From positions 403,498 through 467,497 of the forward strand of contig FN649734.1 in NCBI GenBank assembly GCA_000310025.1: a DNA stretch of 64,000 bases. The letters are read 5' to 3'. The position numbers were made by a program, and so were the translations under genes. The DNA comes from Ectocarpus siliculosus. Taxonomy: Eukaryota > Sar > Phaeophyceae > Ectocarpales > Ectocarpaceae. Below are positions 3,401 to 63,300 of this stretch, in pieces (position 1 is the stretch's first letter; each line of letters begins with the position of its first letter). Under the pieces are notes generated by a model. That model did no database searches, was not told where the DNA came from, and worked only from the letters and a program-made list of their open reading frames with translations.

Positions 3401-6400
3401 ATGGTGGATCCTCCATGGTCGGCCTTATGAAAGCTTTCAAGGGGCTGTACGGAGACAAGCAGGAGGTACAACTCGGGGTGATAAAGCACATGGCCATTGA
3501 CTTTTTAGTTAGCTGAATGATTTTGAGCCACGAGTGCGAGAAGTGTTTTTTCATGAGTGTAATGCTGTCGTTTTTGTTGTCGCATTTTTTTGTTGTTGCT
3601 GATGCTGCTGTTGCTGCTGCTGCTGCTGCTGCTGTTGTTGCTGCTGTTGCTGCTGCTGCTGCTGCTGTTGTTGTTGCTGTTGCTGTTGACGTGGTTGTGT
3701 TGACGTTGCTTCAGTTGCTGCTGCTGTTTTTGTTGCTGTCGCTTCTGCCACTACTGCTACAGCTGTTTTTCGTGGGGGCGACCTCAATGATTTTGTCAAC
3801 CTTGTTGTTGTTGTTGCTGTTGCTGTTGCTGCTGCTGCTGCTGCTGCTGCTGTCGAGTTGGATATTGGACTGGATATTAGCGTCGCTGCTTTGACGAGGT
3901 CAATGAGCACTCTGTCCTATTTCGTCCATGGACAAAAACAATTTTCCATGTCGGTCCTGATCAACATGAAGCAGGTATTTTATCAACGCCTCCCTTCCCT
4001 ATTTTCTCGTTTTAGCTCGTGATGATCGTCGCAAAACTGCACTTCTCGCCTCTTGCTGCCCGCGAATAATCTCACGGACGACGGTACGCGTCCTCTAGGC
4101 TAAGAAAAAGAAGAGCAAGTGGGGGGGAACCCACAGAACCAAGAAACACGGAACGAGGAGGGGCAAGCGCAAGCACAGCAGCAATAAGAGGTCGAAGCAG
4201 GAACCGGAGTCCTCTTCTGCATCCGCGGGCGAGGGGAAGAAGGCCGCGGGTGAGGAAAACGGAGAGCGCTTCGTCCGCGAAAGCGTTCTCATGGGTGAGA
4301 AAGCGGACGAAACGGCCAGTGTCGGTGACTTGTCGGCGTCAGCGTCATCGCGGGAGGGGGGGTCCTTGAACAGCACCGTGACGGCTTCGCCGGGCAAGCC
4401 CCAGAAGGTGTGTGCGGGTTTTCTTGCTCCACGAGACGGTTCGGTTCACACGCGGTTGCTACAAGCGGCTGCTCTAGACTATTTGGAATGTTATCGCCAC
4501 CAATGAGAACAGGAAGTTCCGCGGGCCAACTCAAGACATCAAACGGCGTCTTCATTTCATTTCATTTCATTTTTTTTTTTTTTTCTGCGCCATCCTGTTG
4601 TTTCCACCTTCTTTGTTTTTGTTTTTGCCTCCGGGATTTTTTGCTGCACTCTTTTAACGAGACCTCCTAACCTCGGGAACCTCTGGTCTTTTCTCATTGG
4701 TGCATGCCTTTTTTTTCGGAGACCTCCTACCCTCTGTTTTTTTTCTGATTGGAACACTTTTTCCGAGACCTGCTAACCTCTGGTTTCACTCACTGGCGTA
4801 TTACATGTCTTTTGCTGAGACCTGCTAACCTCTGGCTTTTCTCATTGATGCTGGACTTTTTCCGAGACCTCGTAATCTCTCCTTTTTGCTCATTGGTACC
4901 TGCCTTGCTGTTGTAAACGAAAACATGACAGCGTGTGTTCGTGGTGAGCTTCCGTCCGGGACACTCCCCCGAGGCGACGATGCAGAAAGAAATGGACCTG
5001 CTATCCGAGACGGTTTCATTTCTGGTGGCACACGGGAACACCACTACTGACGAGGCGAGTGTGACAGTGAAATAGAGAGAGCGACACACAGACAGACAGA
5101 CAGACAGACTTAGACAGACAGAGAGCGAGAGAGAGTGAGAGAGAGAGAGAGAGAGAGAGAGAGAGAGAGAGAGAGAGAGAGAGAGAGAGAGAGAGAGAGA
5201 GAGAGAGAGAGAGAGAGAGAGAGAGAGAAAGGGAGAAGATACTCTCTGCGATTGATTGTTTGTTGTTCTCCCTTTTATTTTGTATGTCGTCCAAGTTTGC
5301 ATAACGTAGGTTACTTCCACTTACACCGGCGATGCCATATTTTTTGTTAGTTATCACCACGATAGACGAGGCTAGTGAGTCCCTATGTTCTGTGTCGATA
5401 CGGGGTTCAGGAATATTGGCAACTATTCCATACTGGTGAGACACGTCACCAAAGTTGCGGTTCTACTAGTGAGATTTGTTTTGTTTCTTCAGCACTCCAT
5501 GTGGCCAAGCTTGTTCTCGTTGTTCGCTACGTCGCGGCGGTGGCGGCTTCTTCTACCCCCGGGCAGGTAGTCGTTGTGCTCGAGTCGCCTGGCGGCGAAG
5601 TGACCGAGTTCGGGCTGGCGGCGGCAAGGCTTGCCCGCCTCAAGGACAGAGGTTTCCGTCTCACGGTCTGCGTGGATAAGGTAAGCTGCGGCGGTGCCGG
5701 CGCAGTCGCGATCGCGTGTGCGTGTGTGAGTTTCGAATCACTCAGGTGTGGTGGTGAGTTTCGAATCACTCAGGTGTGGTGGTGCGATCGCGTGTTTGTG
5801 CGTGTGTGCGGCGTGAATCGCACAGGAGGCGATGGTGCAATCGCGCGCGTGGGTGTTTTTGTTGTTATCATCGACCGGGCTAACCGGCTGACCAATGAAA
5901 ATACGCCAGTCTCAGTGCGGTTGAATACACGAAATGCTTCTAAGCGCGGCGTGAATCGTACAGGGTGTGATGGTGCAATCGCGCGCGCGTGTGCGTGCGT
6001 GGGCCCCGCAATCACAGGTCGGCATTCTGAGCTATAGAACTATAGTAGTCGCCAGGAAGTGGGGTATGTACTGCCCCGGCCGGGGCTGCAGCTACTGCTG
6101 CTGCTCATGCTGCTGCCGCTTCTGTGCAGCTTTTTCTCGGGAGACTGTTGAAGAGCCCCGTTCGTCACTGGTTCGGGATGATTCTAGTTGTAGCGCTTGA
6201 TTCGGTGCGTTCTCTTGGTGGGCGAAGCTTGTTTGTCCTGCTGACGACCACTAACACGTGGGGTAGTCCTTGCGTTGTACTTGTATGTGGCATGAACACG
6301 CGGGGAATCTGGGGTCTTCTAATATCAAGGCAATTTTCGTGCTTTCTGGGACGCCACCAGCAAGCAAGAGGTGCGAATATAGGGCGGTTTCGTACACTCA

Positions 6401-60300: not shown

Positions 60301-63300
60301 TGCACAGCGGGATAGCAAAAAAACAGAAAACGGGAAGGCGCTCAGGCTTCTGCCAACAGAAAGGACTGTCTCTTTTGTTCATACACTTTCGTTGTGACAT
60401 TTGTATGTGTCCCATGATAACGTCTTGTTTTCTTTTGGGTTTGTTCGGGGGTTTTCTGTGATGCCCGAACCTCGTGTGTTTTTCTCCCGACGTGATGCTT
60501 ACGGTTGTTGCGGGGTTCTTTCCTGGAACCGCGTTTTTTTGTCGGTGTGAGTACGAACAACAGCTTCCACTGGGTGGGTAGGAATACCGCGTTGCCACTA
60601 CCTTGGTTTTGCCACTGAGATGCCATCTCGCTTTATCGATGTTTTCCTTTTTTTCATGGTGTAGCGGCTCCGGCAAGGTCGAGATGCGTAGTTTGTGCTC
60701 CAGTGATTTCCCCGACAATCTCACTCTTCTGACTTATGACACAACATTTTTTCATCTCTTCTCTTCCATCAATTGTGTGTGTGTGTGTTTTTTTGTGTGT
60801 GTCGCAGATGCCGCACCACCTTTTCGGCACGGCCGGGTTCGCGTACATCGGTGCCATGGTGTGCTCGATCGAGGCCCTCAAGTACGTCAACTTCCCGACC
60901 AAGGAACTGGGCAAGTCTTGCAAGGTGACTATTCAGCTGACTTGACAATCCCACTAGACTTTTTGCGTGGGCAACTGCCGAGTGGACATCCATCGTATTC
61001 GGTCCGTGGTGTCTTTACCATCAGTGCGGTATTGTATGTTTTGATGCTGCGGAAGATATGTGTCTCGTTGGAATGTACACGGCCTGGTTCACGACCCAGA
61101 CCAACATTTTCCATTTATGTCGTGATGCGTTCGCTCGACAGGTTTGTGTCCCGCCCCCAGCGATTTCTTTGTAGGACTTGTCCATGCCAGTTATTGATAA
61201 CACAACAGTTCTTGCACACACCGCCGGAGACTCCGCAATCGATCGTTGCTTCACCCCGCTCGCCGCTTGCTTCCGGTGTGCTTTTGTTTGCGAGGGCAGA
61301 TGATCCCGGTGATGTTGTTCGGAGTGCTGTTCGCCAAGAAGCAGTACAGCTTGCAGGAGTACCTGTGCGTGGCCCTGATCACGGTTGGCATCGTCACCTT
61401 TAACCTCTCCGGGAAGCCGCACAACAAGGAGGCGAGAGGAGTCAGAACCAAACAAGTTTTTGTATCCATCACGTATGGTAGAAAGATTTGTTACGATTTC
61501 AATTTGCCCGTTGCTCGTTTTCTGGAAATTTTTTCATGTAAAGCTGTAGTGGGTCCCTGTGTTGGGCCGCGTTACGGCAAGAGGGCTTTGCCCGCGGCCG
61601 TATTCTGGTTGCTTAGACTCTTTTCCATTTGCTTCGTGACACGACTTGGCCAGCCTTTTGCAAGACCCACTACTGTAAACGGTGAAGCTGCCCTCGTGTG
61701 TCTGACTTGTGCACCTTTGCAACCAAATGACGCCGGACGCAGGTTGAGTCCAGCCTGTCTATTGTTTCCGTTCATTTCCCCCGTGCAATATACGGAGTAG
61801 CAGCTATGTGTGTTCCCCCTCTCTGCATTTTTGCGCATGGTTCGGCAATTTATTGCGGGCCCTCGTGAACGTGATGCATCGTCCTTTGTCTCCTCCCTTG
61901 TCTTCCTTCGTCGTATTTAGGACAAGGAGAACAGCACGTACGGGCTTGGCCTCTTGGCCTTCAGCCTTATCCTCGACGGCGTCACGGGTAGCGCTCAGGT
62001 GTGTAAACTCGTGTACCGTAGGTGACACAAGATACCACCCCCCCCCCTGGATCGCTCGCTTGCTCCACGATGAGAACGAGTTAATAGCCAATCGATGTGT
62101 TTTCGGAAAGCACTCGACGGACGGTTCCAACTCCCCCAATTTCTGCACAGTCACTCATTCTGCTGTGGAGAAATGGGACGTTGAAAGCAGTCCAGAAAAA
62201 AGGAGCTTGAGAGCATGATTTTCAACCGTTACTGTTCTTCTCCCGTATCTCCTGTTTCGTTCGAGGGCCGACCGGAGGCGTGAGGTTTTTCGCAAGACGC
62301 CAGGACGAGTTTCTTCAATGAGTGCGCAAGAATAATTCAGCCGACCTCGACCTTTCACCGTTATAATATTTTTGTTGATGTTGATTCAGGAGCGATTGAA
62401 GGCCGCGTGCAAGCCCACGGTGCACGAAATGATGTTCTTCATGAACGCGTGGGCCCTGGCCATCTTGTCGGCCGCGGCGTACCTGTCGGGTCAGGCGGTG
62501 GAGGGATACGCGTTCTGCTCGGCCAACCCTTCCGTCATGGTGAGAAACTAACTTCCGAGCCTGCATGACCTACTCTTGGCGACCCCAGCATACGACGTAC
62601 TGAAGTAAGAGACTGAACGCCATTCTGACTAGCCTTTGTGTTTTTTCAGCTTTGTGGTTTACCCGCGTTGTTCCATAGCATTCGAGAAAGAGACTGAAAA
62701 CTACCGATGTGCTTATGTTTTTTCTCCCAGCACTTGATTGTTTGTCCCCACTTCGTTCAATGACCTACGAGGTGTAGACTGACAAGTATTGTCAGCATTC
62801 TTGTCTTCCCCGTCGTTATAAACGCGTAGCCAGGCTGCGGTTGGGTGTGATTGTGAGTTGGAGGGTAGGGGTGTGTTACGACCCGGACCGGAAAGTACAG
62901 GCTGATTCTCTCTGCAATGATCGATCGCCTCAACCGCTTGTACCGGTGGCCACGTGAGATGTGGTGTCGTGTGGCTAGCTCAGAGCGGTGCAGTAGCATC
63001 GCCGCGTTCGTAGCCAGTCCCGTTTTCGTTTTCGGTTTGACTGGGAGGAGGAAACCAATACGATGCGTGCGGTACACGAGCCGAGACGGCAAGTGCCGTA
63101 CCCTTTTGAGGAAAAATCCCCCCCGTGAGTCTTGTGCACGAGGATGGTCGTGTCCCCCCCCCGGTCCTGCGTGTGTCTTTGCTTGCATCTCTGTATTCGG
63201 TGCGCCGTTGCTCTCGGGGATCGCCTGGTGGCGAATGTTACGGGGGTTTTTTGTCTTATCTGTACTGCGTGCACGTTGGTTGAAGTTCATGTGACACGAT

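Follow-up and report, generated by a model that had tools for sequence, protein, structure and literature searches.

We asked why introns that begin with GC instead of GT should gather in one stretch of a brown algal genome. The stretch, referred to as the window, comprises 64,000 nucleotides of Ectocarpus siliculosus contig FN649734.1 (positions 403,498 to 467,497 of the forward strand) and has a G+C content of approximately 53%. An earlier reading of these letters (the sequence-only reading) had assigned GC-AG splicing to six introns in four genes, encoding a SohB-like peptidase, CSN4, SPO11 and an SLC35B1-like transporter, and had proposed that the lineage tolerates or favours a GCGAG donor. 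Our analysis makes it likely that the six sites are ordinary U2-type GC-AG introns of the major spliceosome, read by an unchanged U1 small nuclear RNA (snRNA), and that they form a local cluster, half of which comes from a single divergent copy of SPO11.

GC donors fit the conserved proteins at most of the six sites

All six donors were found in the sequence exactly where the sequence-only reading had placed them and with the letters it had given. Each of the introns starts with GC and ends with AG. Together with the one GT intron modelled in SPO11, they are as follows (the slash marks the exon-intron or intron-exon junction):

5055..5566, plus strand: intron of the SohB-like peptidase gene; donor GAG/GCGAGT, acceptor GGGCAG/GTA, phase 0; well supported GC-AG
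18491..19675, minus strand: intron of the CSN4 gene; donor AAG/GCGAGA, phase 0; well supported GC-AG
41078..41323, plus strand: intron of the SPO11 copy; donor CAG/GCAATT, phase 2; probable GC-AG
41446..41828, plus strand: intron of the SPO11 copy; donor TTG/GTGAGA, GT-AG; the sole GT intron among the four modelled in this gene
41963..42297, plus strand: intron of the SPO11 copy; donor GAG/GCGAGT, phase 0; well supported GC-AG
42425..42989, plus strand: intron of the SPO11 copy; donor CAG/GCAAGG, phase 1; well supported GC-AG
61432..61920, plus strand: intron of the SLC35B1-like transporter gene; GC donor GAG/GCGAGA or GT rival at 61441 (GGA/GTCAGA), both phase 0

For each gene, a model with the GC donor and models with GT rivals (the top few per site) were built, and whole models were scored in Pfam bits. 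A second score per model combined splice signal and coding potential. In a third test, window genes were aligned with splicing to single distant references, with and without a penalty on non-GT donors; since such references were too weak for most window junctions, we relied on the whole-model Pfam scores.

With the GC donors in use, the reading frame was open in all four gene models. At four sites the GC model exceeded the best GT rival tried by 6.9 to 28.5 bits. The scores were 34.5 bits against 23.7, 20.7 and 20.2 at 5055 (S49_N, PF08496), 37.5 bits against 27.4, 25.1 and no hit at 19675 (PF22241), and, within SPO11, 135.8 bits against 107.3 at 41963 and against 128.9 and 124.8 at 42425. The CSN4 junction is gapless when compared with a solved CSN4, and its GC donor was chosen by ab initio runs and, as at no other of the six sites, by spliced alignment despite the penalty. 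Without the penalty, alignment also took the GC donor at 41963, joined to acceptor 42306 instead. The 41963 junction is gapless against the SPO11 paralogue, with gaps nearby against topoisomerase VI chains. At 42425, the GC model carries about three residues beyond these distant relatives; it has the top signal and coding score and is the ab initio choice. As judged from the sequence, GC-AG splicing is a well supported best reading at these four sites, and we infer that splicing would take place at the GC donors themselves.

The two remaining sites are closer calls. At 41078, the GC model scored 135.8 bits against 133.4 and 122.4 for GT rivals (PF21180). Its donor signal is 2.2 bits versus -5.5 for the GT-AG pair 41087-41332, and it retains a proline shared with the SPO11 paralogue that this pair drops. 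An ab initio run used the GC donor with a different acceptor, and the signal and coding score favours acceptor 41389, with which the model falls to 95.0 Pfam bits. We consider 41078 a probable GC-AG intron. At 61432, the signal and coding score prefers GC by 5.7 bits (50.2 vs 44.5). For Pfam scoring, the last transporter exon was taken to start after the second of two repeated acceptors, at 63561.

Several results weigh against GC-AG splicing at individual sites. The pair 41087-41332, absent from the sequence-only reading, has the same phase and length as the 41078 intron and reaches the 133.4 bits given above, spliced alignment to topoisomerase VI A takes it, and, position +2 aside, the 41078 donor is weak (36th percentile among GT donors). 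The rival GT donor 61441 lies nine bases downstream of 61432, keeps phase and adds three residues, and it gains 3.1 Pfam bits (171.8 vs 168.7 for GC; PF08449); spliced alignment takes it, while ab initio runs take 61432, and the intron may be GT-AG via 61441. Signal and coding alone prefer GT models that lack conserved residues at 5055 (22.0 vs 15.9 for GC) and 41963 (23.6 vs 21.8), and an ab initio run with a GC prior of 3% chose the GC donor at neither of the two. Spliced alignment never chose GC at 5055, 41078, 42425 or 61432. The sequence-only reading had held that each GC site keeps phase and joins conserved segments without an insertion, and that GT sites close by either shift the phase or add residues. 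A better protein fit with GC is clear at 5055, 19675, 41963 and 42425, narrow at 41078 (2.4 bits) and reversed at 61432; the statement on GT sites fails at 41078 and 61432, where the GT alternatives keep phase and either keep length or add residues that Pfam prefers.

Further features were seen in these genes. AAGGCGAG of the CSN4 donor occurs at two more places within its intron, near 19417 and near 19318 (region 19318-19678, minus strand), and these are possible further candidate GC donors; no direct repeats of at least 25 bases were found in that region. In the transporter gene, the 3' end of an intron, its acceptor and the start of the next exon are tandemly duplicated (63390-63587). The copies are 93 to 95% identical and spaced by approximately 116 bases, so that a decoy acceptor (63445) precedes the modelled one at 63561.

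GC donors in the window and in the rest of the genome

The window belongs to an assembly of 189.5 Mb in 492 contigs, in which U1 and U6 snRNA genes are present. Outside the window, we used spliced protein alignment, with all non-GT dinucleotides equally penalised, on HSP70, Ras-like, kinesin, Rad51 and Spo11 genes. Aligned introns numbered 184 in 44 loci (172 GT, 4 GC, 8 others). Gapped or weakly flanked introns were dropped from the main count (74: 66 GT, 7 others and 1 GC, at locus L044, with six gaps), leaving 110 well-aligned introns with 106 GT, 3 GC and 1 TT. The filter was set after the alignments had been seen; other cuts gave 3 GC of 146, 95 or 81. Under the stricter cut to 95 introns (92 GT, 3 GC), other non-GT donors went from 1/110 to 0/95. 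The 95% interval for the GC share, calculated on 3/109 and for these five conserved gene families, is approximately 0.6 to 8%. The three GC donors lie in two genes:

Locus L030, gene closest to RAB5A among the references: one GC donor, AAG/GCAAGA
Locus L038, one kinesin: two GC donors among five introns, GAG/GCAAGT and AAG/GCAAGC

Ab initio prediction was accompanied by a decoy test in which a prior of 3% was given to one non-GT dinucleotide at a time, for all 15 of them. A first gene finder had fused the window into one 27-exon gene and was discarded. GC donors appeared at 6 of the 31 window introns, compared with 0 to 4 (mean 1.1) for the 14 decoys, and four of the six are sites from the list above: 19675, 41078 (with its different acceptor), 42425 and 61432. 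In another run, with a GC prior of 0.2% equal to that of each decoy, 183 GT, 5 GC and 3 other donors (AG, GA, TT) were obtained, and four of the five GC donors lie in the window. Outside the window (loci L008 to L035, which contain no kinesins) there was no GC excess by this method, with 2/146 against 2 to 5 for decoys (mean 3.2), a result that weighs against the explanation preferred here. Within 477-1269, the ab initio model places a further candidate GC donor at 595 (aag/GCGAGC) between two strongly coding exons.

The sequence-only reading had counted its six sites among about 54 introns modelled; we did not reproduce the 54, the ab initio run giving 31. With that denominator, the window differs from the outside sample (6/54 vs 3/109, p = 0.037), a value that overstates the difference because the window was chosen for looking unusual, and without the SPO11 gene the comparison gives 3/50 vs 3/109 (p = 0.28). 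The three well-aligned outside cases in two other genes bear out that this genome tolerates GC donors elsewhere. A share of about 11% as typical of the lineage is not borne out, and a share far above a few percent was not found in the five families (3/110).

GC donors resemble the ordinary donors of the genome

The ordinary donor consensus, derived from the 106 well-aligned GT donors, is AG/GTGAGT, with G at +3 in 73 and A in 28. Given this consensus, GC donors will often read GCGAG without any special preference, and replacement of T by C at +2 of AG/GTGAGT would yield AG/GCGAG. The supposed preference for GCGAG found no support: all three outside GC donors are GCAAG, and G at +3 is not enriched (4/9 GC vs 73/106 GT donors, Fisher p = 0.15). 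AG precedes the junction in 9/9 GC donors and 72/106 GT donors (p = 0.037), and at the remaining donor positions the nine GC donors outscore the 106 GT donors (p = 0.0018). Both differences fit what is known of GC-AG introns. The comparison of nine sites is biased, because a well-formed consensus helped to draw attention to them, both in the sequence-only reading and in our analysis, and part of the differences may come from this.

The splicing machinery is canonical

All six U1 loci, five of them on the other strand, carry the canonical 5' end pairing sequence, and the U6 locus carries the canonical ACAGAGA. On this basis, a changed U1 or U6 was rejected as the cause. A C at +2 is compatible with U1 recognition in an otherwise strong site. 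An unchanged U1 would read GC donors belonging to the known GC-AG minority class: a donor mutated from GT to GC would remain functional as long as its other positions pair well with U1, and the donors that survive would be those with AG before the junction and good positions +3 to +6. LUC7 gave three exon matches at two places, which have no bearing on GC donors.

The first ten intron bases of all six sites are unlike the U12 donor consensus used for comparison, and U12-type introns were rejected. A search found no U12 RNA, which is no proof of absence. ATATCC is described as the 5' part of the U12 donor consensus (PMC3033335), and an apparent loss of minor introns is described for Ochrophyta (PMC10639083).

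Two SPO11 copies with different donors

The SPO11 copy in the window has GC at three of its four modelled introns. In the genome's other copy, locus L049 on contig C25, all three introns of the Toprim region have GT donors; this copy fits the family better, with 173 bits versus 120.5 for the window copy, over 129 and 130 residues. The frame of the window copy is open across the modelled 216 residues, and it is therefore no obvious pseudogene. Its Toprim motif reads DCNPFG (41324-41445), where the C25 copy has DSDPYG, so that the second Asp of the DxD motif is Asn. The Asp residues of the Toprim DxD motif bind metal, and the substitution may have altered or abolished cutting activity. The C25 copy is likelier to be the meiotic one. 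We infer that weaker constraint on the divergent window copy would be the simplest reason for its GC donors; such changes may have been kept by relaxed constraint or drift.

Weighing the explanations

One alternative is that the lineage has a raised GC-AG share of approximately 5 to 10% genome-wide, as in some other algae, and that the window is a fair sample of it. The upper bound of about 8% outside the window would allow this, the kinesin loci alone yield two good GC introns, an alga at 39.6% is in print (PMC3033335), and conserved housekeeping genes, in which GC donors may be fewer, make up much of our outside sample. We nevertheless think it unlikely, given 3/110 outside, an outside ab initio count (2/146) no higher than the decoys' 2 to 5, and the lack of a difference between window and outside once SPO11 is removed (p = 0.28). 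It is less likely still that several of the six sites are model errors and that the true introns use nearby GT donors with small protein indels. The same-length GT rival at 41078, the Pfam-preferred GT donor at 61432 and, at 5055 and 41963, the truncating GT models with the best signal and coding scores speak for such errors, but at 5055, 19675, 41963 and 42425 all GT rivals tried, the top few per site, lose at least 6.9 Pfam bits.

We also considered that the SPO11 donors might have been selected as weak, regulated donors that restrain the full message outside meiosis. GC at three of four introns has a binomial p of approximately 8e-5 at a rate of 2.75%, calculated post hoc; plant SPO11 genes are often aberrantly spliced with introns retained (PMC4071758), and GC donors are reported to be enriched in alternatively spliced genes (PMC2490688). 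Yet the better conserved, likelier meiotic copy has GT at 3/3, and the window copy has two GC donors out of three that are strong at all positions other than +2 taken together (73rd and 98th percentile of GT donors), which makes this the least credible of the explanations. Only slightly less remote is a broader version, in which GC donors gather in certain genes (the SPO11 copy with 3/4, the kinesin with 2/5) as weak regulated donors, and the GC share of a gene would mark control of splicing efficiency, for example in meiotic or flagellar genes. A local cluster of ordinary U2-type GC-AG introns thus stays our preferred reading.

Relation to known GC-AG introns and implications

Of the genera named below, Aureococcus belongs to the ochrophytes and Phytophthora to the stramenopiles. 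Across 61 surveyed species, GC-AG made up 1.3% of approximately 2.46 million introns, with shares of 39.6% in Aureococcus anophagefferens and 22.2% in Micromonas pusilla; the authors of the survey considered differences in U1 sequence unlikely as the cause (PMC3033335). GT-AG introns average 98.3% in animals, 98.7% in fungi and 97.9% in plants, and a share of 3.4% for GC-AG and CT-AC introns is cited for Phytophthora sojae (PMC7072748). In a limited literature search, no paper on brown algal GC-AG introns was found by title or abstract.

The sites described here resemble U2-type GC-AG introns, the main non-canonical intron class in eukaryotes, in GC and AG at their ends, stronger remaining donor positions and a canonical U1. 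They differ in that G at +3 is common among the GC donors (4/9), as in the GT donors of the genome, and in being known from sequence alone. They share the algal host and the GC donors with the two GC-AG-rich algae, but those genomes have 69.5% (A. anophagefferens) and 65.9% (M. pusilla) G+C (PMC3033335), compared with approximately 53% in the window, and here the share outside was 3/110. The single-base origin at +2 proposed for mammalian GT to GC donor conversion (PMC2490688) would apply here too, with a presumed GT ancestor.

The present genome falls within the published range of GC-AG use, which calls for no new mechanism and does not indicate a change in the machinery. The main consequence is for annotation: gene finders that accept GT donors alone would break the models of the SohB-like peptidase, CSN4 and SPO11 genes. 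The two SPO11 copies, whose donors are GT in one and mostly GC in the other, also provide a test case within a single genome for how GT gives way to GC and at what cost.

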